From a virus, in IMG/VR virus record IMGVR_UViG_3300030118_002679, positions 1 to 58,402 of that record: a DNA stretch of 58,402 nt; one strand, written 5' to 3'. The notes below the pieces were generated by a model. That model made no database searches. It worked only from the letters and a program-made list of their open reading frames with translations, and was not told where the DNA came from. A program made the position numbers and the translations under genes. Position 1 is the stretch's first letter. The number at the start of each line of letters is the position of its first letter. Of the stretch, positions 20,342 through 51,052 are shown in pieces.

Positions 20342-20369
20342 TTGACATCACATCTAGATGTGCTAATAT
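20342..20369 (+). promoter_or_regulatory. promoter with palindromic operator in the spacer
   Basis: TTGACA (20342-20347), 16-base spacer, TAATAT (20364-20369). The spacer contains the perfect 14-bp palindrome CACATCTAGATGTG (20349-20362). The same palindrome lies at the same place in a leftward promoter near 38.64 kb. AGGAG follows at 20381 for the ATG at 20392. Confidence 0.8.
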
Positions 20370-20391
20370 TAAAATAACAAAGGAGAAAATA

Positions 20392-20724
20392 ATGAATAAA
20401 AAACAGTATTTAGAATCAAGAACTAGAAATGGCAGAGAAACATGGAATTTATCTGTAAAAGAAATCAAAAGCTATCTTGAGGAACATAATCCGAAAATTT
20501 TGATTAAATGTGGTGTATATGAATATACCTCTGATTTAGCTTCCTTAGTTTATCGCATAGGAAGTGCAAGACATATTAAAGAAGTTTTTAATGGGTACAT
20601 GAACACTTATGTAAATGATGTTTTTTGGACTAGAGAAGCTACTGGGTGGACTGATGGTCATGAAGTAGCAGATTATGATGATACAGAGTGTATTAAAATA
20701 GAACAATCTTACTGGTTACAATAA
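20392..20724 (+). CDS. hypothetical early-type protein
   Basis: The 110-aa protein is acidic to neutral with several Trp and Tyr residues (VFWTREATGWTDGHEVADYDD near the end, quoted by its Trp-rich core). I do not recognise a family. It is expressed alone from a palindrome-bearing promoter and is followed by a strong terminator, a monocistronic unit set inside the late region. That layout is typical of morons or host-directed early genes. Confidence 0.7.
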   Translation: MNKKQYLESRTRNGRETWNLSVKEIKSYLEEHNPKILIKCGVYEYTSDLASLVYRIGSARHIKEVFNGYMNTYVNDVFWTREATGWTDGHEVADYDDTECIKIEQSYWLQ

Positions 20725-20788
20725 CTATTGCTATATATGAGACAAGATGATATCATTTAGTTGTTTTTATTCAAAACTTCTCCAATTC

Positions 20789-20817
20789 AACCCTAACTAA
20801 TCAGTTAGGGTTTTTTT
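20789..20817 (+). terminator. rho-independent terminator
   Basis: AACCCTAACT and AGTTAGGGTT form a perfect 10-bp stem around AATC, followed by seven T residues. It isolates the gene at 20392 from the unit that begins just after. Confidence 0.93.
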
Positions 20818-20818
20818 G

Positions 20819-20847
20819 TTGATCTATCATGTTTTTTATGCGATTAT
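20819..20847 (+). promoter_or_regulatory. promoter predicted to give a leaderless transcript
   Basis: TTGATC (20819-20824), a 17-base spacer ending in TGC, and GATTAT (20842-20847) form an extended -10 promoter. It starts right after the terminator. Only seven bases separate the -10 from the ATG at 20855 and there is no SD. Confidence 0.4.
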
Positions 20848-20854
20848 ATGTGCT

Positions 20855-21049
20855 ATGAAAAAAATACAATGTGAAACTAGGGAAGTATACAGAAACAAAA
20901 AAAACAATATGGTTTATGCCTCTAAAGAAGACGCAGAGAAGGATATTAACAATCCAGACACAGATACAAAAAGAGAGGATGTTGTTAATGATGTTACAGT
21001 TATAGTGCCACCAGAGGCTTTGTCTTTAGTCTCAAATACACAAAAATGA
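20855..21049 (+). CDS. small hypothetical protein
   Basis: I choose ATG 20855 (64 aa). A TTG further upstream would place coding sequence inside the terminator. The protein has REVYRNKKNNMVYASKEDAEKD and a Thr/Val-rich strand (DVTVIVPP) near the end. It has no SD and lies close behind an extended -10. It overlaps the SET gene by ATGA. Family unknown. Confidence 0.6.
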   Translation: MKKIQCETREVYRNKKNNMVYASKEDAEKDINNPDTDTKREDVVNDVTVIVPPEALSLVSNTQK

Positions 21050-21363
21050 AAATAAATTATAATAAATTTTATTATAATCCTTTACCAGATAATCTATCTA
21101 TAAGAAAAAGTGATATACATGGACATGGAATATTTGCTAACAAAGAAATAAAAAAAGATTATGATCTAGGAAGCACTCATATTAAGGTGCCTATGATATT
21201 AGGTTTTATTAGAACACCTTTGGGTGGTTTTATTAATCATTCCAACAAACCAAATTGTGTTTTAGAAGTTACTAGAGATTGGGATGATTATATTATTTAT
21301 AATGTATTTACAACTAGACTTATTAAAAAAAATGAAGAGTTATTATTAGAGTATGGTGCTTAA
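21046..21363 (+). CDS. compact SET-domain protein
   Basis: The 105-aa protein has the signature parts of a SET lysine methyltransferase: KSDIHGHGIFANKEI (21-35), the pseudoknot motif NHSNKPNC (64-71), and IKKNEELLLEYGA (93-105) corresponding to the GEEL-x-x-Y motif. These residues bind SAM and the target lysine in known SET enzymes. At 105 aa it is close to a minimal SET core with no pre- or post-SET parts. A role in modifying a host or virion protein is inference. It is coupled on both sides (ATGA upstream, TAATG downstream). Confidence 0.85.
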   Translation: MKINYNKFYYNPLPDNLSIRKSDIHGHGIFANKEIKKDYDLGSTHIKVPMILGFIRTPLGGFINHSNKPNCVLEVTRDWDDYIIYNVFTTRLIKKNEELLLEYGA

Positions 21364-22292
21364 TGTTACCTAGAGGTGGAACAGAAATACAACATCATTT
21401 TTTATCACATTACGTGGATGAAAAACTTTTATCTAATTTTCAAATTTGCACATCTATACCTAATAAAGTTCCGATATTAGAAGATAAAATAAATATACTA
21501 TGGCAAAAAAATAGTTATGATCAACCAAACATTTATCCTTGGTTTGAAGACAAAAATAATCACGATAAATTTGATTGGTATATTTTTAATTCTCATTGGA
21601 ACTATGAGAAATTTAGATACAAGTTTGATGTGCCTACTAATAAATGTCACGTAATAAAAAATGGAGTTACTAATTTTCCAGAAAGAGCTTTATATAAAAA
21701 AGGTGATATGGTGAGAATGTTATTTCATGTTACTCCTTGGAGAGGTTTAAATGTTTTGCTAGGAGCTATGCAACAGTTACAAGATTGTAATGTGCATTTA
21801 GATGTGTTTAGTAGTTGTAAAATTTACGGTGAGGAGTTTGAAAAAGCTAATGAACATATTTATGAGCCTTTATATGAACAAGCAAGAAAACTAGAAAATG
21901 TAAATTATATCGGATATAAAGAACATTCTTTTATACAAAAATTTATGTATAGATATCATATGTTTGCCTATCCTAGTATATGGGAAGAAACAAGTTGTAA
22001 TGCAGCTCTTGAGGCAATGGCTAGTGGGTTATATTGTATTGTTACTAACTTTGGTGCATTGTATGAGACTTGTTCTGAGTTTCCTGTGTATGTTACTTAT
22101 GATAAAAACTATCGTAACTTATCTACTGCTTTTGCACATGCAATAAGAAGTGCAGTAGAACATATGGATCAACCAGAGATACATGAACATTTATTAATGC
22201 AACAAAACTTTGTGAAAAAATTTTATAGTTGGGAGAAGAAAAAATTAGAGTGGACAAATTTTTTACAAGGAGCATTAAATGCAAAATCATGA
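21363..22292 (+). CDS. GT-B glycosyltransferase (family 4-like)
   Basis: The 309-aa protein begins LPRGGTEIQ, a shortened start of the acceptor domain, and contains a nucleotide-sugar domain with FHVTPWRGLNVLL (about 121-133), a VNYIGY strand and the E-x7-E motif in EETSCNAALEAMASG (Glu209 and Glu217). This matches retaining GT4 enzymes. The donor and acceptor are unknown. A second glycosyltransferase overlaps its end by 14 bases, so the two probably act in one pathway. Confidence 0.85.
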   Translation: MLPRGGTEIQHHFLSHYVDEKLLSNFQICTSIPNKVPILEDKINILWQKNSYDQPNIYPWFEDKNNHDKFDWYIFNSHWNYEKFRYKFDVPTNKCHVIKNGVTNFPERALYKKGDMVRMLFHVTPWRGLNVLLGAMQQLQDCNVHLDVFSSCKIYGEEFEKANEHIYEPLYEQARKLENVNYIGYKEHSFIQKFMYRYHMFAYPSIWEETSCNAALEAMASGLYCIVTNFGALYETCSEFPVYVTYDKNYRNLSTAFAHAIRSAVEHMDQPEIHEHLLMQQNFVKKFYSWEKKKLEWTNFLQGALNAKS

Positions 22293-23097
22293 GCCTATAT
22301 ATATAGATGATAATAAAATAAAATTATTTGTAGCGACACCAGTGCATAGTGAGGTATCTATACACTACATGCAATCTGTTTTTAAACTACAAGCTAAATG
22401 TCATGAAAAGAAAATACCAATTATGTTACAACTTATGAAATCTTCTTTAGTGACACAAGGTCGTAATTTATGTGTGTCAGAATTTTTAAACTCTGGTTAT
22501 ACTCATATGCTTTTTATTGATAGTGACATACTGTTTGATGCCGACTCTATTTTTAAAATGATAGAAAAAGATGAAGAGGTATTAAGCATACCTTATCCTA
22601 TGAAAGTCATACAATGGGATAAAGTGATGAACAAGTGGCGAGACATCCCTAGTATGAATAAAGATCAAGCTAGTACCTCTGGTAATATGTATCCAGTACG
22701 TATAAAAGACAAAGAGGATGATATAACCGTAACCAATGGCATGATAGAATTATCTCACTCCATGACTGGATGTTTACTAATTAAAAAAGAAGCTTTAGAA
22801 AAAATGAAAAAAGCCTATCCAGAGCTGACTATAAAACAAGAAACGATGATAGATGGTAAGAAACAATTACGTAAGAATTTTTATAACTTTTTTGATACTT
22901 ACTACGATACAGAAAATAAACTTTATCTAGGAGAAGACTTTGCTTTTTCACGTTTGTGGACAAAATTAGGTGGTAAATGTATGGCTTTAATTACAGAATA
23001 TATTACTCATGTAGGTGATTATCAGTTTTCTGGTCGTTTAATTGATGAAATGGTAGCTATTCCCACAGATAGTATTGATACTTCTGATAAGAAATAG
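22279..23097 (+). CDS. GT-A glycosyltransferase
   Basis: The 272-aa protein has a GT-A fold pattern: KLFVATPVHSEVSIHY at the N-terminus, QGRNLCVSEFLNSGYTHMLFIDSDILFD with the metal-binding Asp81-Ser-Asp83 (described by position), MTGCLLIKKEAL and GEDFAFSRLWTKLGG near the end. Similar enzymes are frequent in T4-like and pelagic phages. AAGGAG precedes the ATG. Together with the upstream GT-B enzyme it may glycosylate virion proteins or modify a host surface polymer. Confidence 0.82.
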   Translation: MQNHEPIYIDDNKIKLFVATPVHSEVSIHYMQSVFKLQAKCHEKKIPIMLQLMKSSLVTQGRNLCVSEFLNSGYTHMLFIDSDILFDADSIFKMIEKDEEVLSIPYPMKVIQWDKVMNKWRDIPSMNKDQASTSGNMYPVRIKDKEDDITVTNGMIELSHSMTGCLLIKKEALEKMKKAYPELTIKQETMIDGKKQLRKNFYNFFDTYYDTENKLYLGEDFAFSRLWTKLGGKCMALITEYITHVGDYQFSGRLIDEMVAIPTDSIDTSDKK

Positions 23098-23103
23098 TAG
23101 AAT
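23075..23103 (+). promoter_or_regulatory. sigma70-like promoter for the internal-protein operon
   Basis: TTGATA (23075-23080), 17-base spacer, TAGAAT (23098-23103). It lies at the end of the glycosyltransferase gene, 29 bases before the ATG at 23133, which has its own AAGGAG. Confidence 0.42.
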
Positions 23104-23132
23104 ATCACTATATATTAAACTAAGGAGTTTTT

Positions 23133-23897
23133 ATGTCATTTATCGTACCTATCGCAGCTGGAGTTGGAAGTTTTCTCTTAGCTAAAGCAAGTGGTGCTAG
23201 TAATCGAGATGCATTAATTGCTGGTGGGATTGGTGCATTAGGTGGAGCAGCCGCTTTTAAATTTGGAACAGCAACAGGAGCTGGTTCATTAGCAACTGCA
23301 TTAGGTGGTACGACAACAAAAGCCGCTTTGACTGGTATTACTGCTGGTACTTTAGGATCAGCCGCTATGCAAGGACAACCAGGACAAGCTCAACCTTTAG
23401 AGCAAATGAACGTAGGTTTTCAAGGAGTTGACCCAGCACAATACGCACAAGCTAAAGAAAATTTACAAGGGATTACACAAAGAGCAAATTATGCTGATGC
23501 TCCACAAACAGATGTAGCACAACCTAGTGTGTACGATTTTACCAATCAGGCAATGTATACAGCTAAAGAAGGTGGATTAGCAGAGATAAAAAGATTTAGA
23601 GAAGGTGGTGTGAATTACTTACCAAGTAAAACGGATCACGATGAAAAAGATTATAACAATTATGTTAGAGCTGAGGGTTATGTAGAAGACGGTAGTGGTA
23701 ATGGGAATAAAGATGAAGACACTATGTTAGCACAATTAGCTGATGGAGAGTTTGTTAGTAGAGCTGATGCAATACTAGGAGCTGGCATCATGGAGGGAGC
23801 TAGTCCAGAAGATTTTAAAGAGATGAGAAGATTAGGAGCTAAGTTCTTTTACAAACAACAAGATCAGTTGAAGAGGATTTACGATATTACTTCATGA
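23133..23897 (+). CDS. internal virion / ejection protein candidate
   Basis: The 254-aa protein has a Gly/Ala-rich hydrophobic N-terminal third (about 1-85) with three glycine-zipper-like segments, such as GVGSFLLAKASG and GGIGALGGAAAF, typical of membrane-inserting ejection proteins. The C-terminal half has LAQLADGEFVSRADAILGAG (about 206-225), a motif I recognise in marine phage virion proteins. It starts the operon of large internal proteins. A channel-forming role during DNA ejection is inferred. Confidence 0.65.
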   Translation: MSFIVPIAAGVGSFLLAKASGASNRDALIAGGIGALGGAAAFKFGTATGAGSLATALGGTTTKAALTGITAGTLGSAAMQGQPGQAQPLEQMNVGFQGVDPAQYAQAKENLQGITQRANYADAPQTDVAQPSVYDFTNQAMYTAKEGGLAEIKRFREGGVNYLPSKTDHDEKDYNNYVRAEGYVEDGSGNGNKDEDTMLAQLADGEFVSRADAILGAGIMEGASPEDFKEMRRLGAKFFYKQQDQLKRIYDITS

Positions 23898-24307
23898 TAA
23901 ATATTGTGAAGGTAAATGTTGACGAACATTGGACACAAGCATCTAAATTATTAAAAGATGCTATTGAATTAAGTAACGGTAGGCATACTTTAGAAAGTAC
24001 CTACAATAATTTAGTCAAAGGAGTTATGAGATTGTACGCAGTTTATGTTAAAGATAAAATAAAAAGTTTTTTCGTAACTCAAATAGTTCTATACCCAGCT
24101 AAAACTATTTATGGAATTATATTCTGTGGTGGCACACATGTTATAAACAACATCAAAAAGATTGAAAGTTTTTTCAAAACAGAAGCTTTGACAAACGGTT
24201 GTAGGGGTGTAGAGATTATAGGTAGAAACGGTTGGTCAAAGATAATTAAGAATACTCCTAGTTTGGAGTTTGAACCTAAAGGTGTTTACTATGAAATGGA
24301 TACTTAA
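23894..24307 (+). CDS. GNAT-fold phage protein
   Basis: The 137-aa protein shows the strand-helix order of GNAT proteins (VKGVMRLYAVYVKDKIKSFFVT, described by position 40-61; then YGIIFCGG; then GVEIIGRNGW at about 112-121). Proteins of this shape occur between ejection-protein genes in T7- and P22-like marine phages. The acetyl-CoA loop (Q/R-x-x-G-x-G/A) is not evident, so enzymatic activity is doubtful. It overlaps both neighbours. Confidence 0.55.
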   Translation: MINIVKVNVDEHWTQASKLLKDAIELSNGRHTLESTYNNLVKGVMRLYAVYVKDKIKSFFVTQIVLYPAKTIYGIIFCGGTHVINNIKKIESFFKTEALTNGCRGVEIIGRNGWSKIIKNTPSLEFEPKGVYYEMDT

Positions 24308-25379
24308 ACTATTACCTAATAAATTTAAGGTATGGTTATACAAATGTTTATACAAAGAAGTAGCTAGTCAAGGAGAATACGAGGACACAGAACTAGCACA
24401 TGTAAATCCTTATGAAGTAAAACTATTAAAAGAGATTGGTGGATCTGGTAGGTTAAACAAAGCTACTGGACTGAAAGGGTACTTTGGTGGTGGTGGTGCT
24501 CCAGCTCCAGCTCCTAGTGGTGGATCTGGTAGACAAGAAACAATATCTAGAGAAGCTCCAGAAATAGAAGCAAGAAAATTAGCATTGTATGATCAAGCTA
24601 TTGAACTTGCTAGACAACCGATGGCTATACCAGAATATAAAGTAGCAGGCCCATCTCCATTAGAGTCACAAGCTTTTACGCAATCTGGTCAAACTGGTAT
24701 AGGAGCTGTACCAGTACAAGCTGGATTAGGTGCAACTATAGGAGCTGGTCAAACAGCTATGCAAGATATTACACAACAAGGAGGTTTGATTGATTCTTTC
24801 ATGAACCCTTATCAAAGATATGTTATTGATGAGATTAATAGACAAAGTCAAGTAAGACAAAATGAACAAGCAGCTCAAGCAATAGGAGCTGGAGCTTTTG
24901 GTGGTGGTAGAGAAGGTGTACAAAGAGCTGAAGAAGAAACTAGAAGATTAGGTTTAATAGGACAAGCTCAAGCAGAGGGTTTCCGTAGTGCATTAGGAGC
25001 AGCTGAAAGACAAAGACAATTTCAAACAGAAGCTCAACTTAATCAAGCTGCTTCCTTATCTAACTTAGGTCAAACACAACAATCTATGGCCCAACGTGAC
25101 ATACAACAACAACTACAAGCTGGTCAGTTACAAAGAGATATAGCACAAAAAGGTCTTGAAGCACAAAGGGCGACTGAAGTAGCAAGACAAGCTGAACCAT
25201 TTCAAAGAGTAGAATTTGCAAAAGGTATTATGACAGCATTACCAACTACTGCATCACAGATTACAGCAACGACTGGTCCTGGTGCTAATCCACTTGCACA
25301 AGCTGCTGGTGCTGGTATCGGAGCATACGCTGCTTATAACTTATTATCAAACCCAGCTGCACAAACAAAGGTACCTTAA
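24291..25379 (+). CDS. virion structural / ejection protein
   Basis: I prefer ATG 24291 (362 aa, MKWILKLLPNKF) over the in-frame ATG 24270. The N-terminal part has DTELAHVNPYEVKLLKEIGGSG (about 33-54, key residues ELAHVNPYE), a sequence I recognise in marine phage virion proteins. The centre is a long Gln/Ala-rich helical region (about 180-300), and the end is a hydrophobic Ala/Gly stretch (QAAGAGIGAYAAYNLL). The composition matches DNA-ejection proteins. Confidence 0.68.
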   Translation: MKWILKLLPNKFKVWLYKCLYKEVASQGEYEDTELAHVNPYEVKLLKEIGGSGRLNKATGLKGYFGGGGAPAPAPSGGSGRQETISREAPEIEARKLALYDQAIELARQPMAIPEYKVAGPSPLESQAFTQSGQTGIGAVPVQAGLGATIGAGQTAMQDITQQGGLIDSFMNPYQRYVIDEINRQSQVRQNEQAAQAIGAGAFGGGREGVQRAEEETRRLGLIGQAQAEGFRSALGAAERQRQFQTEAQLNQAASLSNLGQTQQSMAQRDIQQQLQAGQLQRDIAQKGLEAQRATEVARQAEPFQRVEFAKGIMTALPTTASQITATTGPGANPLAQAAGAGIGAYAAYNLLSNPAAQTKVP

Positions 25380-25380
25380 T

Positions 25381-27036
25381 ATGAACACAGAAGGTAATAT
25401 TTTTAAACAAAAGCCAAATGACAATCTTAGAGATAATATGAATGGTACGGAGGAAAACGCACAAACACAAGGTGCAGATAAAAAAACACCTCAAACTGTA
25501 AGAAAACCAAATGCAACTGCTACTGCACCACTATTCACGCAACAAGAAAGAATAGGTTACACTTTGATACCGTTGGCTAGTGCTTTATTACAAGGTAAGA
25601 GATCTGGTGGGGGATCGTTATTAAATGACACGTTAGGTAGTTTAGGGCAAGGTCTTATGGGTACAGCAGATATGGCTTTACGTATAAAACAACTAGAAGG
25701 CAAGAAAAGAGAAACTGGTACTGGAGTCAAAAATGTTAAATTACAACCTACTGCTGGACAAGTTGAAATACAAGGTCAAATATATACACCAGAAATGGGC
25801 AGAGAATTTACTTTAGATGAAGCAACTAGGTTGATGTATCCACCAGATACTTTTATGGAGGTGTCCTCTGATAAGAAAGGCACTATAAAAACTGAAACTT
25901 TTAGTCTTTTTTATGTTGGTACTAAAGATGAAGCTAAAAGACTATATCCTAATAACCCTACTATACAAGATCTAATAGTTGCTAAAGATGACAACCAAAT
26001 AGGTCAACCAGTTATACAAAATAATAAAAGATTAGCAGCTAATGTTATTTTCAAAGACGGTAATCAAATAGAAGAGAGATTAGATTTTGTTTCAAAACAG
26101 CCAGTTGGAACCACTACAGATTCATTAGGACAACCTATTTTTCAAAAAGACAGAGCAAGTGCTGTAGCGTATTTAAAAAGCTTAGGTATAAATGAAGATA
26201 TATCCGGATATGAAGCAGTTATTAACAAATTAATTAATCCTGCAAAAGCAGGAAAACCAGTTTTTGAGAGTGGAGTAGGGTTAGTAGTTTCTGCAAGAAG
26301 ACCAGATGTAGCTGGTTCAAATATAGAGTTTATATCTTTAGCACCAGAAAAAGATTTAAAAGATGCAAGATTTATAGCTAATCAAGATGCAGTTAAAAAA
26401 TTAAATAAAGTATCAACTGATTTATCTGCTCAAGTCTCACAAATGTCTGGTAGAGTAGAGCAAGTAATGAATCTTTTGTTAGGAGGAACTCCTACAGGAA
26501 GATTAGAAGAACTTTTATTACCTTTTAGATCTTTTTTAAGAGATGTTGTAGGAATGACTCAAGAAGAAAGAGAAAAATTAAGTGCACAACAAGCAATACA
26601 AAAGTCAGCATTTGCCTTAGCTCCTTTAATGAGACAAGCTGGTGCTGGATCTACATCAGATATGGAATTTAACGCTTATATGTCAGCTGCTGTAAGGTTG
26701 GGAGACACACCTAGAGCTAACTATATAAGTTTGTATATGTTGAACAATATTAAAAAAAACGCAGAAAGAGTTGCTGCATTAAGAACAGATTTATTAGTTG
26801 AAGGTAAAACTGCTCAAGAAATCAAAGAAGCAGTAGATGCTCAAGATCCAGGTTTATTTAAAACTTACAAAGGTGAAACAGATAGAGATGCTATAAGAGA
26901 GTGGAGCAAAACTTTAAAAAGAGGCGATGTTGTTTTTAACATGGATCGAGATGGTAATCCTATTTATACTGTAAATGGAGTATCTGCTGGATCTTATGTA
27001 GTGGTGGATGGTCAAGGAGGATTGTTTTTTCAATAG
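25381..27036 (+). CDS. large internal virion protein (551 aa)
   Basis: I place the start at ATG 25381, one base after the upstream stop. An in-frame ATG at 25282 would overlap the previous gene by 98 bases. The protein has a Gln/Thr-rich N-terminus, a Gly/Leu segment (PLASALLQGKRSGGGSLLND), a beta-rich middle and a helical region with SGRVEQVMNLLLGG and QAGAGSTSDMEFNAYMSAAVRLGD (key part GSTSDMEF). The latter resembles motifs in other podovirus internal proteins. The function is likely ejection or inner capsid. No enzymatic motif seen. Confidence 0.65.
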   Translation: MNTEGNIFKQKPNDNLRDNMNGTEENAQTQGADKKTPQTVRKPNATATAPLFTQQERIGYTLIPLASALLQGKRSGGGSLLNDTLGSLGQGLMGTADMALRIKQLEGKKRETGTGVKNVKLQPTAGQVEIQGQIYTPEMGREFTLDEATRLMYPPDTFMEVSSDKKGTIKTETFSLFYVGTKDEAKRLYPNNPTIQDLIVAKDDNQIGQPVIQNNKRLAANVIFKDGNQIEERLDFVSKQPVGTTTDSLGQPIFQKDRASAVAYLKSLGINEDISGYEAVINKLINPAKAGKPVFESGVGLVVSARRPDVAGSNIEFISLAPEKDLKDARFIANQDAVKKLNKVSTDLSAQVSQMSGRVEQVMNLLLGGTPTGRLEELLLPFRSFLRDVVGMTQEEREKLSAQQAIQKSAFALAPLMRQAGAGSTSDMEFNAYMSAAVRLGDTPRANYISLYMLNNIKKNAERVAALRTDLLVEGKTAQEIKEAVDAQDPGLFKTYKGETDRDAIREWSKTLKRGDVVFNMDRDGNPIYTVNGVSAGSYVVVDGQGGLFFQ

Positions 27037-27045
27037 GATATATTT

Positions 27046-29648: not shown

Positions 29649-29662
29649 AAAGTGGTGATACC

Positions 29663-37754: not shown

Positions 37755-37756
37755 AT

Positions 37757-38356: not shown

Positions 38357-38605
38357 TTAAGCACTCTCCTTGTTGTTTTTATTTCTTTTTTTATTATGAC
38401 CAGTTTGTATTATTTTTGGTAAATTAGAATAAAATCTTTTTACATAATCAATCGCTTGATATTGGTACTTAAAAATAGAAATATTATCTTCTAATTCTGT
38501 TCTATTCTGATTATCTACCATTTCTAAAGTTACTATCCATGGGTGAGATATACCTAAAGCTTTGCTATCAGCGTGTTTCCATATTCTTATATTTTGTTTT
38601 GTCAT
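38357..38605 (-). CDS. early hypothetical protein, first gene of leftward operon
   Basis: The 82-aa protein has HADSKALGISHPWIVTLEM and a helical YQYQAIDYVKRFYSNLP, ending in a basic tail (KKRNKNNKESA). GGAGA lies before the ATG. It is the first gene downstream of the palindrome-bearing leftward promoter. I do not recognise the family. Confidence 0.65.
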   Translation of the reverse strand: MTKQNIRIWKHADSKALGISHPWIVTLEMVDNQNRTELEDNISIFKYQYQAIDYVKRFYSNLPKIIQTGHNKKRNKNNKESA

Positions 38606-38630: not shown

Positions 38631-38658
38631 AATATAGCACATCTAGATGTGCCGTCAA
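38631..38658 (-). promoter_or_regulatory. leftward promoter with palindromic operator
   Basis: Read leftward: TTGACG (38658-38653), 16-base spacer, TATATT (38636-38631). The spacer is the perfect 16-bp palindrome GCACATCTAGATGTGC (38637-38652), the same core as in the promoter at 20342. The -35 lies just beyond the stop of the helicase gene. Confidence 0.8.
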
Positions 38659-38661
38659 ACA

Positions 38662-40065: not shown

Positions 40066-41038
40066 AATCTTTTTCTATTACTCCTAATTCTTTCGTGCCT
40101 CTAGTGTGATTTTTAATCCATACTTTTTTACCAGACTTATAATGTCTATAAAAACCTCTAACATCGTGAAACCTATTTTTGTTAACACTTCTATTGTAAA
40201 TAAAATTATTGTGTTTACTAGATTTACTAATATCTAATATTTTGTATTGATAAGCAGTAGGTTTTTTATTTCGTAAGTCAGCTAATCTCTCCTCTGGTTC
40301 TACTTCAACACATTCTTGTCTATTAGTTAAATTATTTAAACTGTGTATAAAATATACTGTCTTTGCTGCACTCATTATTTCTTCTCTAAATTTAAAATCT
40401 ATTTCTTTTAATTGAGGATTATCAATAGGATTTTTCAATGACCAATGTAGAAATGGTTTTGTATAAGACAAGTAGAAATCAATCCAATCTTTATCTCCTT
40501 GAAACCATGAATGTAATAAATTAATATTATCTCCATGTGTTGAGCTATCATTTTCCCAATGGCTCCTCCATAGATTTTTTGTTTTAGATATACCCCAATC
40601 AGCAATATGATTTACTAATCCGTTACCTTCGATTATCGTGCCATTAGAATTAAATTTTTCACCATTTTTTAAATAATAAAATGACGATATAACATAGTGT
40701 GTTTTTTTATCTCTAATCCAAAACCCTGCATAATTAGTAGTTGTTTCTTCTGCATACTCTATTATAAGTATTTGATTATCATAGTAAGGCAAGAAATCTT
40801 CTAATAGTGTTTTTCTATCAACTTCTCCTTCCATAAATTTATCTGAAACATTCTTAGTTACAAAAATCTTTTTAGAATTAATAAAATCCATGTGTAGATC
40901 GTTGACTACTTGTTTGTAAGGATTTTTATTTTTATTTAAAAATGCCACCTTGCCAAACTGTCTATTCGTGAATTTTGCTTGTCTAGGATTACGGATAATA
41001 TATCCGTAATTTTTTATTATTGTTTCCATGTCTATCAT
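40055..41038 (-). CDS. conserved phage protein next to SNF2 helicase
   Basis: The 327-aa protein has no recognised enzyme signature. Its C-terminus shows FHDVRGFYRHYKSGKKVWIKNHTRGTKELGVIEKDY, where the HDVRG-x3-RHYKSGKKVWI part is a pattern I have seen at the end of other phage proteins of unknown function. The N-terminal part has several aromatic clusters. It overlaps the helicase gene by 11 bases and the gene upstream by ATGA, so the three are coupled. A DNA-processing role is inferred from the operon only. Confidence 0.65.
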   Translation of the reverse strand: MIDMETIIKNYGYIIRNPRQAKFTNRQFGKVAFLNKNKNPYKQVVNDLHMDFINSKKIFVTKNVSDKFMEGEVDRKTLLEDFLPYYDNQILIIEYAEETTTNYAGFWIRDKKTHYVISSFYYLKNGEKFNSNGTIIEGNGLVNHIADWGISKTKNLWRSHWENDSSTHGDNINLLHSWFQGDKDWIDFYLSYTKPFLHWSLKNPIDNPQLKEIDFKFREEIMSAAKTVYFIHSLNNLTNRQECVEVEPEERLADLRNKKPTAYQYKILDISKSSKHNNFIYNRSVNKNRFHDVRGFYRHYKSGKKVWIKNHTRGTKELGVIEKDYVA

Positions 41039-41328
41039 ATCTTTATTACCTCATAAGTTTTTTTACTTTTAGGTTTAACAATTAAATAACTATTAATAAC
41101 TAATCTTGAGTTCATTCTTGTGCCTACAGATTTTGCAGACTGTATTGCATTAGTCTTTGCATACCGTAGTGCAGATTTAATTTCATTGTCTTCATACTGT
41201 GGTAATTTTTTTCTAAGTTTACCAAAAGTATTATGACCTTGTTCAATAAGCACTCGTATGTCACTGGCTATCTTTTCTTTGAACGCCATAGTCAATGCAA
41301 CTTTTTTTTGTACGCCATTTATTATCAT
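41035..41328 (-). CDS. small helical protein, first gene of helicase operon
   Basis: The 97-aa protein has FGKLRKKLPQYEDNEIKSALRYAKTN, which could form a winged-helix-like helix pair (key part LPQYEDNEIKSALRYA, about 42-57), followed by a basic strand-rich end. A HTH-type DNA-binding protein is possible. AAGGAT precedes the ATG. It may regulate the divergent region or assist the helicase. Confidence 0.58.
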   Translation of the reverse strand: MIINGVQKKVALTMAFKEKIASDIRVLIEQGHNTFGKLRKKLPQYEDNEIKSALRYAKTNAIQSAKSVGTRMNSRLVINSYLIVKPKSKKTYEVIKI

Positions 41329-41512
41329 TTTTTTATCCTTTGTTTATTGTAAGAAAAATGTCTTACATATAAATAATAAATTATTTTTAATTTTATGTCA
41401 AATCATATCTCATCTAGATAAGCCTTAGTTTATAAGGGTTCTTGAACAAATATTTTTTTTTGTTTGACTTGCTGCATTTTTTTTTATACAACTTATCCAG
41501 AAAGGAGGTCTG
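41329..41512. promoter_or_regulatory. divergent control region for helicase and replication operons
   Basis: Leftward: TTGACA (41401-41396), 17-base spacer, TATTAT, and a small hairpin in the leader (GTAAGA with TCTTAC). Rightward: TTGACT (41464-41469), then TATACA (41485-41490) or TACAAC (41487-41492), and AAAGGAGGT before the ATG at 41513. Upstream of the leftward -35 is ATCTAGAT within TATCTAGATGAGATA, a degenerate form of the operator palindrome. The region is AT-rich and also has CCTTA-GTTTA-TAAGG. An origin is possible but not shown. Confidence 0.5.
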
Positions 41513-42064: not shown

Positions 42065-42065
42065 C

Positions 42066-42908: not shown

Positions 42909-42913
42909 GTATT

Positions 42914-44473: not shown

Positions 44474-46043
44474 TAAAACCATAAAGATTTATGGACCTCC
44501 TGGTACTGGCAAGACTTATACTTTAATAGAACGTATCTTAAAAAAATATTTAACCAAAGGAGTTTCTCCTAATGATATAGCGTACATTAGTTTTACGAAC
44601 AAAGCTGTAAATGAGGCCATCGAGAGAGTGATAAATACTTTTCCTAAATTTGATATTAAAGACTTTGAACGATTTAAAACATTACATAAATATTGTAGGA
44701 GATACTTTGAAGAGGAGGTGTTTGATCCTAAAAATTGTATGATTGACTTTGCACTACAAAATAAAATTATTAAAACTTCGGATAATCGTTTGGCTGATGA
44801 TGGCTTTATCTATAAGGATTGGTCATTAGGTATTTATGATAAAGCACGAAACACGATGCAAGATCCAGTGTTAACTTACAAAAAAGAAAGTTACAAAAAA
44901 GATTCATTAGATGTGTATCTTAGAAAGATCTCTACATATGAGCATTATAAAAAAGATAGCTTTATTGATTTTACAGATATGATATCCAGAGCTATTGATG
45001 AGGTAGACTTTCCTAATTTAAAATTATTAATTCTTGACGAAGCTCAAGACTTTACTCCACTACAGTGGTCATTGATATATAAGATGGCAGATAATGTAGA
45101 AAGAATATATTTAGCTGGTGATGATGATCAATCTATTTATTCTTGGAATGGAGCTGACAGTAGATACTTTACTCACTACTTTGGTGGCAGGAAAGTTATA
45201 TTAAGAAAAACAAAACGCTTTGGTCAAGCCATTTATGATTTTTCCCAAGTTATAAGAAAAGGTATTATTAATAGTTTAGAAAAAGAATACTATCCATCAG
45301 ACAAAGATAGTTATGTAAAACGCTATCTTAATTTTAGAGAGGTGCCATTAAATATAGATGGTAACTGGTACATATTAGGTAGAGTTAATTCTGTGGTAAA
45401 TGAATTACGTATGATGGCAAAAGATGCTGGTTTATATTTTTCTGATAATCGTGGTAATAAATCTTTTGACAAAAAACAATGGGAAGCAATCAAGAGCTGG
45501 ACTAAAATTACTAATGGTAAAAGTATCACGAAACACGAAGCAGAAACTATGATGAAATATATAAGGGAAGTAAAAGATAGTTCTTATCGTTCTGTAAAAT
45601 TTTGGATTAGTCTACCTGATACTCAAGAATATGATTTTGATGGATTAATAGACTGGTGTGGTTTAGATTTAAATGATGATGCTTATAACAAACCTTGGTA
45701 TGAAATATTGAAAAGAAATTTTCATACTCCACAAACAACGTATTTTGTTAGATTGTTACAAAGATACGGACAAAAAACATTGGATCAAGATCCACAAATA
45801 ATTATTGATACCATACACTCTTGCAAAGGCGGTGAAGCAGACAATGTTTTATTAGCATCTAAATGTAATTGGGTATCATCATTTCAAAGAAAAGATCAAC
45901 ACGAACAATCTGAGGAACGTAAAGTTTATTATGTCGGTGTAACGAGAGCTAAAAAAAGATTACATTTATTAGGTACAGATCACAGATATAATTATCCGAT
46001 TGGAGTAGATTATTTAAATTTTATAAAGGAGAAAAAAAAATGA
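44427..46043 (+). CDS. UvrD/PcrA-like SF1 helicase
   Basis: The 538-aa protein has SF1A motifs: GPPGTGKT (23-30), LILDEAQD (201-208), GDDDQSIYSWNGA (231-243), TIHSCKGGEADNVLL and VYYVGVTRAKKRLHLL near the end. It lacks a recognisable nuclease domain. ATG 44427 is used here; an in-frame ATG at 44439 is equally possible and neither has a good SD, consistent with coupling to the primase gene. A replication or recombination helicase is expected. It may be the fork helicase in the absence of a DnaB-type gene. Confidence 0.85.
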   Translation: MNHIMTSLEKAKKIYNKTIKIYGPPGTGKTYTLIERILKKYLTKGVSPNDIAYISFTNKAVNEAIERVINTFPKFDIKDFERFKTLHKYCRRYFEEEVFDPKNCMIDFALQNKIIKTSDNRLADDGFIYKDWSLGIYDKARNTMQDPVLTYKKESYKKDSLDVYLRKISTYEHYKKDSFIDFTDMISRAIDEVDFPNLKLLILDEAQDFTPLQWSLIYKMADNVERIYLAGDDDQSIYSWNGADSRYFTHYFGGRKVILRKTKRFGQAIYDFSQVIRKGIINSLEKEYYPSDKDSYVKRYLNFREVPLNIDGNWYILGRVNSVVNELRMMAKDAGLYFSDNRGNKSFDKKQWEAIKSWTKITNGKSITKHEAETMMKYIREVKDSSYRSVKFWISLPDTQEYDFDGLIDWCGLDLNDDAYNKPWYEILKRNFHTPQTTYFVRLLQRYGQKTLDQDPQIIIDTIHSCKGGEADNVLLASKCNWVSSFQRKDQHEQSEERKVYYVGVTRAKKRLHLLGTDHRYNYPIGVDYLNFIKEKKK

Positions 46044-46264
46044 ACTGTTGGCATTGTAATACAAAATTAATATGGGGTGGAGATCATGATGGCGATCAAT
46101 GCATGGAAGAAGATATAGATTTAGTAACCAATTTAAGCTGCCCTAACTGTGAAACCTTTGTATATGTATATCATAGATTTAAACCCATTGACGATAAATA
46201 TAAAAAAAAAACTCTAAATGAAGGAGACTTTTATGACGATTTTAATTATGTATACTATTGTTAG
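46040..46264 (+). CDS. small zinc-ribbon protein
   Basis: The 74-aa protein has Cys-x2-Cys near the start (NCWHCN) and a second Cys-x2-Cys (LSCPNCET), forming a zinc ribbon. A His-Asp-rich linker connects them. The end is acidic and aromatic. The role is unknown; small zinc ribbons are common in phage replication modules. Its start overlaps the helicase stop. Confidence 0.65.
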   Translation: MNCWHCNTKLIWGGDHDGDQCMEEDIDLVTNLSCPNCETFVYVYHRFKPIDDKYKKKTLNEGDFYDDFNYVYYC

Positions 46265-46301
46265 TACGATTATAGGATTACAAAATGCAGGTATATTATG
46301 A
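46233..46301 (+). CDS. 22-aa hydrophobic peptide
   Basis: A 22-codon frame begins at ATG 46233 with AAGGAG 7 bases upstream, and overlaps the next ATG at its stop (ATGA). The peptide is hydrophobic throughout (MTILIMYTIVSTIIGL), fitting a single membrane helix. It overlaps the end of the zinc-ribbon gene in another frame. The SD is the best evidence that it is translated. Confidence 0.42.
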   Translation: MTILIMYTIVSTIIGLQNAGIL

Positions 46302-46471
46302 GTTATAAAATAAATATATGTTTAGAATTTAGAACTAGACCAACTAAAGCTATGGTTGAAGACAAACTATTTAATTTAATTAGAGATGGCTTTGTATTAA
46401 AGACTAAGGAGGAACATGAAAGAGAAAAACAACTTGTGGAAAAAGGGCAGCAAGCATTACCACAATCTTGA
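46298..46471 (+). CDS. 57-aa hypothetical protein
   Basis: The frame starts in the ATGA overlap with the 22-aa peptide and overlaps the next gene by 56 bases. The peptide has FRTRPTKAMVEDKLFNLI and a Glu/Lys-rich helix (KTKEEHEREKQLVEKG). Coupled arrangement supports translation. Family unknown. Confidence 0.5.
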   Translation: MSYKINICLEFRTRPTKAMVEDKLFNLIRDGFVLKTKEEHEREKQLVEKGQQALPQS

Positions 46472-46628
46472 GATACAACCTTCACAATTTATTAATAAAA
46501 ATAAATTACAATTTGCTGAAGGAAATGTGATTAAGTATGTGTGTAGACATCCATATAAAGGGGGAGCTGAAGATATTAAGAAAGCAATACACTATTTAGA
46601 AATGATTTTAGAGAGAGATTATGAATAA
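46416..46628 (+). CDS. DUF3310 protein
   Basis: The 70-aa protein matches DUF3310: HYHNLEIQPSQFI (14-26), FAEGNVIKYVCRHPYKGG (33-50) and EDIKKAIHYLEMIL (52-65). This family (SaV-like) is common in phage replication modules; a nucleotide-related role has been suggested for it, but it is not settled. AAGGAGG precedes the ATG. The end overlaps the next gene by 8 bases. Confidence 0.85.
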   Translation: MKEKNNLWKKGSKHYHNLEIQPSQFINKNKLQFAEGNVIKYVCRHPYKGGAEDIKKAIHYLEMILERDYE

Positions 46629-46911
46629 AGATGATAATAAATTAGTTTATTTATTTAATAATAAAAAAAACGAAGAGAACAAAAAAGAATTAGATGAAAT
46701 GCTTATTGTTAGAAAAGCAATCATAAAAGCAATGAAGAACATAGAGTCTGAGGTATCCCCACATAACATAATAAAAGTTTTAGGGTTTTACTTATGTGAG
46801 ATAACTTTTAAGCATTGTCCAGACCCTTTTGTAGCTACTAATTTATTATTACAAATACTTGTAAACCAAACAGAAGCAGAGTCTTTGAAAATAATAAAGA
46901 GAGATATTTAA
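46621..46911 (+). CDS. hypothetical replication-module protein
   Basis: The 96-aa protein has a Lys/Asn/Glu-rich start and a helical second half with two Cys residues (YLCEITFKHCPDPF). It overlaps the DUF3310 gene by 8 bases and the polymerase gene by one base (TAATG). I do not recognise the family. Confidence 0.6.
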   Translation: MNKDDNKLVYLFNNKKNEENKKELDEMLIVRKAIIKAMKNIESEVSPHNIIKVLGFYLCEITFKHCPDPFVATNLLLQILVNQTEAESLKIIKRDI

Positions 46912-48770
46912 TGCAGTTAGTATTTCCATTACAAAAAAAAACTATGTGGTCTCCACCAATAGAATACAAAGATTTATCTAGTGCAACAGAAATAGCCATA
47001 GATTTAGAAACTAGAGATGATGGAATCAACAACGGTTTAGGAGCAGGCTGGGCATTTAATAAAGGTGAGATCATCGGTATGGCAGTTGCTACACAGGGGT
47101 TTAGTGCCTATTATCCTTTCGGACATTTAGGTGGTGGTAATTTGATTAAAGAGCAAGTCTTAAAATATATGCATGATATCTGTGCCTTGCCTTGTAGAAA
47201 AATATTTCATAATGCAGCTTATGATGTTGGGTGGTTACAGTCTTATGGTATTAGAGTAAATGGTGAGATTGTAGATACAATGATTGCTGGTGCCTTGTTA
47301 GATGAGAATAGATACTCGTATTCTCTTAATGCATTAGCAAAAGAATATTTAGGTGAGATGAAAGTAGAAAAAGATTTACGAGATACCGCTTTATTATATG
47401 GTGTAGATCCTAAGCAAGAGATGTGGAAACTACCTAGTGAAGCAGTTGGATTGTATGCTCAAGAAGATGCACGACTCACGTATGATTTATGGCAGCGAAT
47501 GAAACATGAATTAAACAAACAAAATTTATTAACCATATGGCAATTAGAAAGAGATCTTTTGCCGCACTTAATTGAAATGCGTAAAAGAGGTATTAGAGTA
47601 AACGAACCAGGTGCAGAAAAATTAAAAAAAGATTTTATTGCATCGGAAAAGAAAACGCTGCAAACGATTAAGAACGCTGTAGGTAAGGAAGTAGATATCT
47701 GGGCAGCCAGAAGCATAGCCACAGCTTACGATAAATTAGGCATTGAATATCCTAGAACAGGCAAGACGCAAGAACCAAGTTTCACGCAGCAATGGTTGAT
47801 GGAAGATAAAAACGATATATCAAAGTTGATTGTGCAAGCAAGAGAGATGAATAAGTTTCATAATACTTTTATCAATAGTATTTTAAAATACACACATAAT
47901 GGCAGAATACACGCTGAGATAAATCAGTTACGCAGTGATAATGGTGGAACCGTTAGTGGTAGATTATCTATGAACAATCCTAATTTGCAGCAACTACCTG
48001 CACGTAATAAAGAATTTGGTGGTTTGATACGAGGATTGTTTCTACCAGAAGAAGGTGAAAAGTTTACTGCACTTGATTATAGCCAGCAAGAACCTCGCCT
48101 CGCAGTGCATTATAGTTTGGCCTTAGAATATGAGGGAGCAAAAGAGATAGCTTTATCATATGAAAAAGGAGATGGAGACTTTCATCAATCGGTAGCAGAC
48201 TTATGTGGTATTGATAGGAAGAGTGCTAAAACGATTTCATTAGGCTTGATGTATGGTATGGGTAAAAATAAATTAGCCAACATGTTAGGATTAACTTTTG
48301 ATGAGGCTAGTTCTTTAATTGATAAGTATAATCGTAAAGCTCCGTTTTTAAAAATGCTATCAGACAAGTGTATGGACAAAGCACAGAACGAAGGGGTGAT
48401 ACGCACTAAGTTAGGAAGAAAATGTCGCTTTGATTTGTATGAGCCAAAAGACTGGGGTGTACATACTCCAGAGAGATATGACAATGCCTCAGCTAAATAT
48501 GGAGCAAAAAATATTAAAAGAGCCTACACATACAAAAGTCTTAACCGATTGATACAAGGCAGCTCCGCAGATCTGACAAAGAAAGCTATGCTAGAATGTG
48601 CGAAGATGGGTCATTTACCATTGCTCCAGATCCACGATGAATTATGTTTTAGTATCAAAGATCAAAAAGATATAGAACATATAAAAAGTAAAATGGAAAA
48701 TTGTGTAGAGTTCCTGGTGCCTATGAAAGTGGATGTAGCTATTGGTGAAAATTTTGGTGAAACTATCTAA
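46911..48770 (+). CDS. family A DNA polymerase with 3'-5' exonuclease
   Basis: The 619-aa protein has exonuclease motifs IDLETRDD (Asp31, Glu33), HNAAYDVGW (Asp105) and YAQEDARLTYD (Tyr182, Asp186), then polymerase motif A LDYSQQEPR (Asp389), motif B RKSAKTISLGLMYG (Arg436, Lys440, Tyr448) and motif C QIHDELCFS (His575, Asp576, Glu577). The residue aligned with E. coli Phe762 is Leu444. There is no 5'-3' exonuclease domain, so the length is usual for phage PolA. It is the replicative polymerase of this genome. Confidence 0.93.
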   Translation: MQLVFPLQKKTMWSPPIEYKDLSSATEIAIDLETRDDGINNGLGAGWAFNKGEIIGMAVATQGFSAYYPFGHLGGGNLIKEQVLKYMHDICALPCRKIFHNAAYDVGWLQSYGIRVNGEIVDTMIAGALLDENRYSYSLNALAKEYLGEMKVEKDLRDTALLYGVDPKQEMWKLPSEAVGLYAQEDARLTYDLWQRMKHELNKQNLLTIWQLERDLLPHLIEMRKRGIRVNEPGAEKLKKDFIASEKKTLQTIKNAVGKEVDIWAARSIATAYDKLGIEYPRTGKTQEPSFTQQWLMEDKNDISKLIVQAREMNKFHNTFINSILKYTHNGRIHAEINQLRSDNGGTVSGRLSMNNPNLQQLPARNKEFGGLIRGLFLPEEGEKFTALDYSQQEPRLAVHYSLALEYEGAKEIALSYEKGDGDFHQSVADLCGIDRKSAKTISLGLMYGMGKNKLANMLGLTFDEASSLIDKYNRKAPFLKMLSDKCMDKAQNEGVIRTKLGRKCRFDLYEPKDWGVHTPERYDNASAKYGAKNIKRAYTYKSLNRLIQGSSADLTKKAMLECAKMGHLPLLQIHDELCFSIKDQKDIEHIKSKMENCVEFLVPMKVDVAIGENFGETI

Positions 48771-48773
48771 TTC

Positions 48774-48801
48774 TTGACATTTCACATCGTATCACTAAAA
48801 T
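48774..48801 (+). promoter_or_regulatory. promoter predicted to give a leaderless transcript
   Basis: TTGACA (48774-48779), 16-base spacer containing CACATCGTATCAC, TAAAAT (48796-48801). The ATG of a 25-aa gene begins six bases beyond the -10. The CACATC half of the operator is present but the other half is not. Confidence 0.6.
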
Positions 48802-48807
48802 CATTAT

Positions 48808-48885
48808 ATGACTAAAACAATACTTACATTTATATTGTCTGTAAACGTAGTAGTTTGGGCATATATTTGGTTATTAACTTTATAG
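48808..48885 (+). CDS. 25-aa hydrophobic peptide
   Basis: A short frame starts at the expected transcription start of the promoter just upstream. The product is almost fully hydrophobic with two Trp residues (TFILSVNVVVWAYIWLLTL), fitting one membrane helix. It is followed by AGGAG and the RHH gene. Similar mini-peptides occur in marine phages. Its position alone could also mark a regulatory leader. Confidence 0.48.
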   Translation: MTKTILTFILSVNVVVWAYIWLLTL

Positions 48886-48893
48886 GAGACAAA

Positions 48894-49091
48894 ATGGATA
48901 CAACTAAGTGGAGAACCGTAGCTATTAGAATAGATAGTTACAAATTATTAAAAGGTATGTGTGAAAAAACTAATCGTAATCCCTCTAATATGATTAATGA
49001 ATTACTAGATTTGAGCCTTACACAGATGAGCAAAAAGGAACAAAGAAAAAAACAAGACATCATTAAAGATTTATTAAAAAGCCAGAACTAA
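48894..49091 (+). CDS. ribbon-helix-helix DNA-binding protein
   Basis: I use ATG 48894 (65 aa) with AGGAG 8 bases upstream, not an in-frame ATG at 48855. The core WRTVAIRIDSYKLLKGM and TNRNPSNMINELLDLSL forms a strand-helix-helix as in Arc/MetJ repressors: residues 6-12 form the ribbon, helices at about 14-25 and 30-43. A basic tail (KKEQRKKQDIIKDLLKSQN) may aid binding. RHH dimers bind short palindromes, so it is a candidate for the CACATCTAGATGTG operators. The promoter upstream has half an operator, consistent with possible autoregulation. Confidence 0.72.
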   Translation: MDTTKWRTVAIRIDSYKLLKGMCEKTNRNPSNMINELLDLSLTQMSKKEQRKKQDIIKDLLKSQN

Positions 49092-49154
49092 AAAAATTCT
49101 GGCATAAATCCTTATCATCGTGTAAAAGATAAAGTGACAAGGAGTAAAATCGAA

Positions 49155-49358
49155 ATGTCATTTTATGATCTTATATGTGACTTGATGAAAGAAGCAATGA
49201 GCCAGGACATCGACCCACGACTCATGGATCCAGATGACAGACATTTATTTACTGATTTAGTTTACGCTGAATACCTTCTCAATAAAGACAAAGGAAATGC
49301 ATATAGTGTTAGATATAAAGAATTATTAATTCATCTTATCAAAACCTATGGGCACTAA
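49155..49358 (+). CDS. hypothetical protein upstream of the TerS region
   Basis: I choose ATG 49155 (67 aa), which has AAGGAG 10 bases before it. The GTG at 49134 lies before that SD. The protein is acidic and helical with DIDPRLMDPDDRHLFTDLVYAEYLL. It overlaps the next ATG at its stop. Family unknown. Confidence 0.6.
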   Translation: MSFYDLICDLMKEAMSQDIDPRLMDPDDRHLFTDLVYAEYLLNKDKGNAYSVRYKELLIHLIKTYGH

Positions 49359-49822
49359 TGTATCTACCATCAACTGAAGTATTAAAAATATTAGGATACA
49401 ATTTATCAAAACAAATCGTTTTTACAGAACGCAGACCGGAGCAGCAACTTTACGTTTATGTGTTAGTCAATGCCATTGAAGATGTTATGATAAAACAATC
49501 TGATCGTAAATCTTCATTGATAAAATGTGAAGCTCATAATTGGTTTATTGGATTAAGCATAGATTTTCGCAGAGTATGTGAATGGGCCTTATTAGATCCA
49601 GAATGTGTACATCACAGCTATAAATTATCTATTGAACAACAAAGAGTAAAATTTACACATCGTCAAATATTATGGAAGCACTATCACAATACCTATCTTA
49701 AAATGAAAAAATTATCTGAAAAAGAAAAACGCAGACAGAAAGGCACATTAACAAATTTACGTTATCAAGTTTTAGAAAGTCCTACTAATTATATAAGCAC
49801 GTTGTGTTTATCCGTCATTTAA
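49358..49822 (+). CDS. conserved phage protein facing TerS/GNAT genes
   Basis: The 154-aa protein has LVNAIEDVMI, CEAHNWFIGLSIDFRRVCEWALLDPECVHHSY (motif EAHNWF then FRRVCEWALLDPE at about 69-97) and a basic helical C-terminus. The EA-x2-WF with CE-x-A-x-LDP pattern occurs in alphaproteobacterial phage proteins near terminase genes. The 3' end overlaps the convergent GNAT gene by 8 bases, and no terminator separates them. Confidence 0.65.
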   Translation: MYLPSTEVLKILGYNLSKQIVFTERRPEQQLYVYVLVNAIEDVMIKQSDRKSSLIKCEAHNWFIGLSIDFRRVCEWALLDPECVHHSYKLSIEQQRVKFTHRQILWKHYHNTYLKMKKLSEKEKRRQKGTLTNLRYQVLESPTNYISTLCLSVI

Positions 49823-50237
49823 AATACTCAAAATTATAACTGGTTTCATTATCTGCTAATAATTTAGCACCATTTCTTAGATGAAAGTTTTTAGCCATTT
49901 CAGTTTTTGGAGATAATGTCACATATCGTTTTGTTTGTAATAATTGTAATAATTCGTTAAGTATTAATCGACCATAACCTTTCTCATATGACCATACCGT
50001 ATAAAATATAGTAAACTCATCTGCTGCTGATAATGAATATATTTCCAACTGTTCCATATCAATAGGACATTTAAATGTATTAGCGATACATACTACTGCC
50101 TTACCTGGTATCGTATATATACATCTACCTTGTGATGTTCTAAAGGCATAACTTACATCACGTACTGGATCGTCTTTAATTTGTACTTGTGATTGATTAG
50201 TTACTTTTTTTAGTTTCGATTTTGTCTGGTGTGACAT
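49815..50237 (-). CDS. GNAT-like acetyltransferase fold protein
   Basis: The 140-aa protein has a GNAT-like order: EFTIFYTVWSYEKGYGRLIL (key part YEKGYGRLILNELL, in the position of the acetyl-CoA loop), RYVTLSPKTEMAKNFHLRNGAKLL and YNFEYFK at the end. The YVTLSP-x-TEMA-x-x-FHLRNGA segment is shared by phage proteins next to TerS. Whether it acetylates anything is unknown. It overlaps the TerS gene by 41 bases. Confidence 0.7.
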   Translation of the reverse strand: MSHQTKSKLKKVTNQSQVQIKDDPVRDVSYAFRTSQGRCIYTIPGKAVVCIANTFKCPIDMEQLEIYSLSAADEFTIFYTVWSYEKGYGRLILNELLQLLQTKRYVTLSPKTEMAKNFHLRNGAKLLADNETSYNFEYFK

Positions 50238-50718
50238 CTATTATGTTTTTAGCCTCGCCTATTTTATGTTCAAGCTCCTCTAATCGTTTTTCTAATTGAT
50301 CTCTACTCATACCTTCTAATGTAGAGTGAGTTATTTGTTTATGATCTACGTATAGTCCAGCTAGTTGACCAGAACGATACTCAGCATTAATGGATGCATT
50401 AAACTGACCCTTGGCTGACGATTGATCTCTTAAATCATCTAATATCTTGTAGCGTCTTAATTTATCTTTCTCGTACTTTTCTTTTTCTTCACCTATTCTT
50501 TTTTCCATATAGCGGCAGATATGAGGATTGATATCTGGGTTCGTAAGCTTCGATGCAAGAACCATGGCACTCTCTCTTGTTTTCGTATTATAACCACTCT
50601 CGATTAACGCATCAGTCTTAGTTATCTTTCCCCAATTGTCTACTAATATATCTATAAACTTTTTTTGTTTATCAGTTAGGTCTTTTATAGATCTCAGTTC
50701 TCTTCTTTTTTGTGCCAT
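50197..50718 (-). CDS. terminase small subunit
   Basis: The 173-aa protein matches Terminase_2-type small subunits: LTDKQKKFIDILVDNWGKIT, a HTH-like DALIESGYNTKTRESAMVLASKLTNP (key SGYNTKT... ASKLTNP at about 40-58), a helical oligomerisation region, and a C-terminal coiled coil (LEKRLEELEHKIGEAK). It should bind the pac site and start packaging with TerL at 53836. It lies on the opposite strand and 3 kb away from TerL, an unusual arrangement. Confidence 0.8.
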   Translation of the reverse strand: MAQKRRELRSIKDLTDKQKKFIDILVDNWGKITKTDALIESGYNTKTRESAMVLASKLTNPDINPHICRYMEKRIGEEKEKYEKDKLRRYKILDDLRDQSSAKGQFNASINAEYRSGQLAGLYVDHKQITHSTLEGMSRDQLEKRLEELEHKIGEAKNIIDVTPDKIETKKSN

Positions 50719-51052
50719 ATTGTTACCGTTTTTTTGTTAAATTTACCATAAAGCACTTACTTAGAAAATAAAAAATAAAAAAAAATTGCAGCAAAAACAA
50801 TCCTCTGTAGCTATTTTTTCCCAAAATCTAGGAATTTTTCCCAAAGTTTTCCCAAAACTATTTCTCTGTAAGGGTATGTATTCTGGGATTTTTTCCATTT
50901 TCCCAAAATATTTGCTTATTCTACGCTATTAATATTTTTTTTTTTCTAAGCAGCTGCTTTATAGAAAAATAAGAATTTAGGAAAAAATACATAAAACACT
51001 TGCATCACTAATTCGATGTGCTATTATAATAGTATAAACAAAGGAGAAATAA
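50719..51052. promoter_or_regulatory. intergenic control region with repeated boxes and a dyad
   Basis: This 334-bp region lies between divergent genes and holds no gene. It contains four copies of TTTTCCCAAA (starting 50816, 50836, 50847, 50898), two copies of CTCTGTA, and a dyad at 50941-50968 (TTTTTCTA with TAGAAAAA arms around AAGCAGCTGCTT). The rightward promoter at 51000-51027 follows. The box spacing of 20, 11 and 51 is near multiples of a helical turn. An origin or operator cluster is possible. Confidence 0.6.
51000..51027 (+). promoter_or_regulatory. promoter with degenerate operator
   Basis: TTGCAT (51000-51005), 16-base spacer, TATTAT (51022-51027); TATAAT at 51025-51030 is an alternative -10. 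The spacer has CAC and GATGTGC, retaining the right half of the palindrome seen at 20342 and 38637. AGGAG precedes the ATG at 51053. Confidence 0.62.

Follow-up and report, generated by a model that had tools for sequence, protein, structure and literature searches.

A palindrome in the promoter spacers of a probable SAR11 phage is a candidate operator shared by exchangeable accessory genes

Why would one and the same palindrome lie inside the promoters of separate genes in a viral genome, and which protein, if any, would read it? The question is raised by a 58,402-base IMG/VR virus record (IMGVR_UViG_3300030118_002679; the whole stretch analysed, hereafter the window), which holds two exact copies of the 14-mer CACATCTAGATGTG, at 20349-20362 and 38638-38651. 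The host is probably SAR11, since the PolA protein of the window shares 63% identity with its counterpart in Pelagibacter phage HTVC023P. Both copies of the 14-mer fill the 16-nucleotide spacers of good sigma70-type promoters, at 20342-20369 on the plus strand (TTGACA-TCACATCTAGATGTGC-TAATAT) and at 38631-38658 on the minus strand (TTGACG-GCACATCTAGATGTGC-TATATT), exactly where a first-pass annotation of the sequence had placed an identical palindrome. The sequence 3′ of both promoters is AACAAAGGAG / AACAAAGGAGAAAA, followed by ATG. The pattern CACATN4ATGTG was observed twice in the window against 0.06 occurrences expected, and two occurrences were reached in one of 100 shuffles. The comparisons below make it somewhat probable that a phage-encoded dimeric repressor uses the palindrome as its operator. 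This repressor, most likely a ribbon-helix-helix (RHH) protein, would control accessory-gene cassettes together at up to four slots.

Conservation in relatives, on which the first proposal of a regulon had been staked, was found. Within the clade, for which a PolA identity of about 82% or more is taken as the limit, four syntenic slots carry the promoter, and its dyad-symmetric spacer operator is conserved. Slot A (20.3 kb) follows a 2-oxoglutarate (2OG) oxygenase gene, slot B (38.6 kb) a helicase gene and slot D (6.3 kb) the capsid gene, while slot C (51.0 kb) lies opposite the terminase small subunit gene. Slot D (6306-6446, plus strand) is empty in the window and holds a palindromic promoter with cargo in L289 and L305. 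A position weight matrix of the promoter family gave above-chance sites in the window at 20.3, 38.6 and 51.0 kb only. The last of these (51000-51027, plus strand; TTGCAT-CACTAATTCGATGTGC-TATTAT) carries a degraded operator, CACTAATTCGATGTG, at 51006-51020. As had been noted, its right half GATGTGC is kept, and so is a left CAC, but just three of the seven mirrored pairs, the outer three, are complementary.

Two further sites once counted with the palindrome were rejected. The promoter of the RHH operon (48774-48801, plus strand) does contain CACATC in the window, but the closest relatives have CTCATC or CTTATC; the palindrome is absent, and it is TATCACT (48790-48796), adjoining the -10, that is conserved in most in-clade lineages. 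The degenerate form ATCTAGAT / CTCATCTAGATAAG (41409-41422, plus strand) lies outside the spacer, upstream of a leftward -35, and is not conserved as a palindrome in relatives, which show TATCACA or TAGCACA near that position.

Beyond the clade, the promoter was not found at slots B and C of relatives with a PolA identity of 71% or less, and none of the out-of-clade slots inspected had the palindromic form. The promoter is missing from the first 50 kb of HTVC023P, and a search of cultured phages returned unrelated low-scoring matches only, the element itself not being found there. Some matches to the arm pattern are richer in GC (L206, L207, L210, L212, L217 and L219); these, and those in L213, L214 and L221, were set aside for want of a Shine-Dalgarno context. 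In motif-independent surveys the promoter was patchily present at slots A and B, and it was also seen in the slot C regions of window type that were examined within the clade.

A closer inspection of the spacers bears on whether the palindrome itself is under selection. In 13 type I promoters the left arm CACAT carries 2.0 bits in all five columns, compared with 0.4-0.6 bits at -35 positions 4-6 and about 1 bit or less in most upstream columns. The left arm has no role in sigma recognition yet is invariant. Conservation of the right arm proves little, as that arm coincides in part with the extended -10. However, a search fixing the right arm and Shine-Dalgarno alone recovered the left arm in the in-clade matches, and one fixing the left arm alone recovered the right arm in 7 of 7. 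Symmetry is also kept where the letters change. CACA/TGTG has given way to CACT/AGTG in one arm pair (CACAAATTAGATGTG with CACTAATTAGAAGTG) and CTAG to ATAT in another. Moreover, reading the 17-nucleotide spacer GCACAAATTAGATGTGC (slot C of L006 and L278) on its opposite strand gives exactly GCACATCTAATTTGTGC, the slot A spacer of L446; between -35 and -10 the element thus occurs in either orientation. Two compensating arm pairs and one flip are few cases, but at the level of sequence they are the signature of a dyad operator and argue for a bound dimer.

The genes behind the shared promoter are non-homologous and are swapped between relatives. In the window they encode 110 amino acids at slot A (g20; 20392-20724, plus strand), 82 at slot B (38357-38605, minus strand) and 116 at slot C (51053-51403, plus strand). 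None has a significant family match, in agreement with their first description as small unknown proteins, and Pfam scans of these three first cargo genes assigned no function. The 116-residue orphan is followed by a radical-SAM protein (51548-52555, plus strand; Pfam PF04055, 7.4e-7), the second gene of slot C, and then by core genes. Slot A of other phages holds an unrelated cargo family of 264-288 residues, slot B across relatives at least four unrelated small genes, and slot C several. A homologue of the slot B protein (38% identity) lies within the slot C cargo of L241, L263 and L291, and the 116-residue protein has homologues of about 40% identity in the L090/L208/L209/L211 group.

Slot A is a moron, with its own promoter, cargo and terminator between genes that are adjacent in relatives. 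Occupied slots run from promoter to Shine-Dalgarno, cargo and terminator, the promoter being a predicted sigma70 promoter, and the cassette of the window is closed by a putative intrinsic terminator, CAACCCTAACTAATCAGTTAGGGTTTTTTT (20788-20817, plus strand), called from sequence and fold. The empty slot measures 40-46 nucleotides in L452, L454, L464, L467 and L476-L480. The terminator is conserved in occupied and relic slots alike; L445 and L473, which retain it with no cargo, look like such relics. A cassette terminator was not seen in slots B and C. In L005 and L205 the slot C promoter stands directly before a core gene orthologous to that at 52542, which points to insertion of the slot C cargo between a resident promoter and the core gene.

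The operator goes with the phage. The same slot C cargo is found in L278 and L602 (genome G151), near-identical in DNA from the Shine-Dalgarno onward, behind different spacers, and at slot A L446 and L469 likewise share near-identical cargo with different spacers. L006 and L278 have the promoter in common and differ in cargo. The cargo breakpoints fall between the -10 and the Shine-Dalgarno. This retention of the resident promoter supports co-evolution with a regulator without proving it, because plain recombination at the Shine-Dalgarno would keep the resident promoter too. We tentatively suggest that a lineage may keep one regulator and operator and capture incoming accessory genes under them, since cargo would recombine in the short homology immediately 3′ of the operator. 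Operators would differ from lineage to lineage, so that control of a gene would change on transfer. Such an arrangement would amount to a plug-in regulon of morons in a phage type described as lytic.

In the mechanism we propose, host sigma70 would read strong extended -10 promoters, and a candidate dimeric repressor would bind the dyad between -35 and -10, keeping RNA polymerase off several promoters simultaneously. Exchangeable morons would follow these promoters, in as many as four fixed slots. Recombination in the short homology of the -10 and Shine-Dalgarno would exchange the cargo and thus bring incoming genes under the operator of the resident phage. A lytic life style is described for HTVC027P, a phage of the HTVC023P type (PMC12753301), and silencing in lysogeny therefore need not be the purpose; late-infection shut-off of early genes is an alternative. 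Activation of the MerR type was rejected, the spacers being 16-17 bp long as against 19-20 bp with a dyad for MerR-type sites. The joint regulon of the first-pass annotation is thus retained in part. The shared operator, the compensation and the flip favour a bound dimer, but the promoters at 48774 and 41.4 kb have no palindrome, and the set is better described as the promoters of exchangeable accessory-gene slots.

The regulator would most likely be the Arc-like RHH protein encoded at 48894-49091 on the plus strand (phrog_3180, 8.9e-6). Its sequence profile and fold place it in the RHH class: the top structural matches of its model are mostly RHH domains (CopG/ParG/PutA), all of them weak with E-values of 1 or more, and its profile had no significant match among PDB sequences. 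The promoter of its own operon holds the related half-site TATCAC. TATCAC(A/T) occurs at 29 distinct in-clade intergenic sites, RHH promoters included, compared with 7 for the reversed control. The motif is present at the RHH promoter in most in-clade lineages examined (L007 is without it); further copies accompany slot promoters and, in some relatives, lie close to the leftward early promoter. Out of the clade, some phages whose RHH protein has T at position 8 carry TATCACAT upstream, and several with S8 carry TATCCCAT or similar. The RHH protein is therefore the leading candidate for binding the palindrome, although we would put its chances at a little under even. In the same region, an open reading frame (ORF) for a single-span hydrophobic peptide of 25 amino acids (48808-48885) lies directly upstream of the RHH gene, with similar ones in several relatives. 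Elsewhere, TATCACT stands beside TATATT at 23103-23110, ahead of the gene at 23133, and may be a further site of the same regulator.

Several observations weigh against a repressor at a shared operator. In several phages the two pairs at the centre of the palindrome change without compensation, and the slot C operator of the window is itself degraded. Each genome has one to three sites, with patchy presence in slots A and B. In the G150/G151 subclade, slots A and C share a different spacer, ATGTGATANGATTTGATAT; G150 retains the palindromic type at slot B. As for the RHH protein, the TATCAC link was noticed post hoc among sites that are phylogenetically non-independent, and the contact strand of the protein is nearly unchanged in relatives that lack the palindrome.

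That last point leaves room for another phage protein to act at the same operator, be it the 97-residue protein encoded at 41035-41328 (minus strand) or a small protein not recognised as a regulator. This is compatible with the operator itself, and we consider it a serious possibility, if one that falls short of probable. The 97-residue protein gives a weakly winged-helix-like model, and its gene adjoins the divergent promoter with the degenerate palindrome. However, that palindrome is not conserved, and L224, L301 and L308 carry the palindromic promoter while missing the gene.

Alternatively, the promoters may all descend from a single strong extended -10 promoter, with the palindrome a passenger that no regulator reads and with common ancestry keeping the left half. 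We regard this as unlikely. Patchy presence, variable inner pairs and the overlap of the right arm (TGTGC) with the extended -10 would all fit such descent, and cargo exchange would leave the promoters in place by default. Ancestry does not readily account for a left arm that holds constant amid drift in the flanks and in -35 positions 4-6, nor for the compensatory pairs and the flip, each of which requires two coordinated changes. The restriction of the promoter family to one clade, where it is repeated at several slots, also speaks for an operator.

A SAR11 regulator could in principle bind the palindrome, in which case phage genes would follow host physiology, and the promoters do resemble the host sigma70 type. 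In 147 SAR11 genomes, however, CACATN4ATGTG gave 53 matches against 34 for the reversed control, which is near chance, and 13 of the 15 matches inspected lie inside ORFs, 7 of these being a single conserved coding stretch. A scan for the promoter pattern in genome contigs from a collection of 84,980 species found no match. With the palindrome no commoner in SAR11 genomes than chance would give, a host regulon was rejected and a host binder appears decidedly improbable. The arrangement ATATCACAT-N12-ATGTGATAT, with a half-site resembling the phage operator, occurs in porin intergenic regions of two SAR11 genomes (L438 and L440, around 1495-1530) and is the other observation in favour of a host binder. 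Finally, a role of the palindrome as a terminator or RNA hairpin for the gene upstream can be dismissed as most improbable: a terminator scan flags 38653-38636, and upstream genes at slots A and B stop 11-15 nucleotides before the palindrome, but the T-tract is poor, the gene upstream at slot C points the other way, the inner stem is variable and the palindrome always keeps its place relative to the -35 and -10.

How does a phage repressor at a shared spacer operator compare with known systems? Arc of phage P22 is an RHH repressor whose operator lies between the -35 and -10 of a phage promoter. The combination is the same here, where it is predicted, with a different operator sequence and phage type. 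Omega (ParB of pSM19035) is an RHH repressor of WATCACW heptads (PMC9499535), which recall the TATCACA/T found in direct and inverted order at the promoter of the RHH gene and at slot promoters. However, Omega reads 7-10 contiguous heptads rather than one or two half-sites, and sequence homology with it is not established. Nearer analogues are the ESAS of Cluster K mycobacteriophages, repeated promoters with an inverted repeat (PMC3203893; promoter content in PMC11373665). There, too, sigma70/SigA-like promoters with an imperfect inverted repeat precede small genes, a start-site motif is linked, the consensus varies by subcluster and the regulator is not known. The phages are unrelated, however, and ESAS extend over about 46 bp, with arms of 15-17 bp on either side of a spacer that varies, as opposed to a dyad of 14-15 bp wholly between -35 and -10. 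The 13-bp start-associated sequence with 17-bp inverted repeats that defines ESAS differs in sequence and layout from the present element, which by analogy works like an ESAS and is not a member of the group. The PeSL promoter/stem-loop motifs of T4-type phages (Arbiol 2010 and Comeau 2014), as outlined in PMC4503421 and PMC4177764, are early promoter modules that head small accessory genes and mediate their shuffling. As outlined there they pair a promoter with a terminator stem-loop, whereas the inverted repeat described here would lie untranscribed in the spacer. Morons, defined as genes with their own promoter and terminator between conserved genes (PMC2147016), match slot A, including the empty sites in relatives. 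Unlike usual morons, several here stand under one operator in a genome, and slots B and C run into core genes with no cassette terminator. With ESAS, PeSL and morons as the nearest analogues, what appears to be new is an operator wholly inside the spacer and common to swappable morons. This suggests one phage-encoded switch over a set of swappable accessory genes in this group of ocean phages. A shared operator of this kind would offer a testable entry to the timing and silencing of phage accessory genes and a DNA tag for locating them in metagenomes, and would be a clean case of horizontally acquired phage genes brought under resident control.

Three further observations were made elsewhere. 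A small protein encoded at 21046-21363 has a SET-domain match (Pfam, 3e-9), which is unusual in a phage. Repeated TTTTCCCAAAA-type motifs occur at 50719-50999, in the stretch that separates the slot C promoter from the gene for the terminase small subunit; they are kept in close relatives and may be a packaging or replication site. In an unrelated 71-kb phage (L156), several promoters at 5859-6740 have spacers almost identical to one another around GCACATGGACGTGC, a separate and independent instance of inverted-repeat spacers in several copies.

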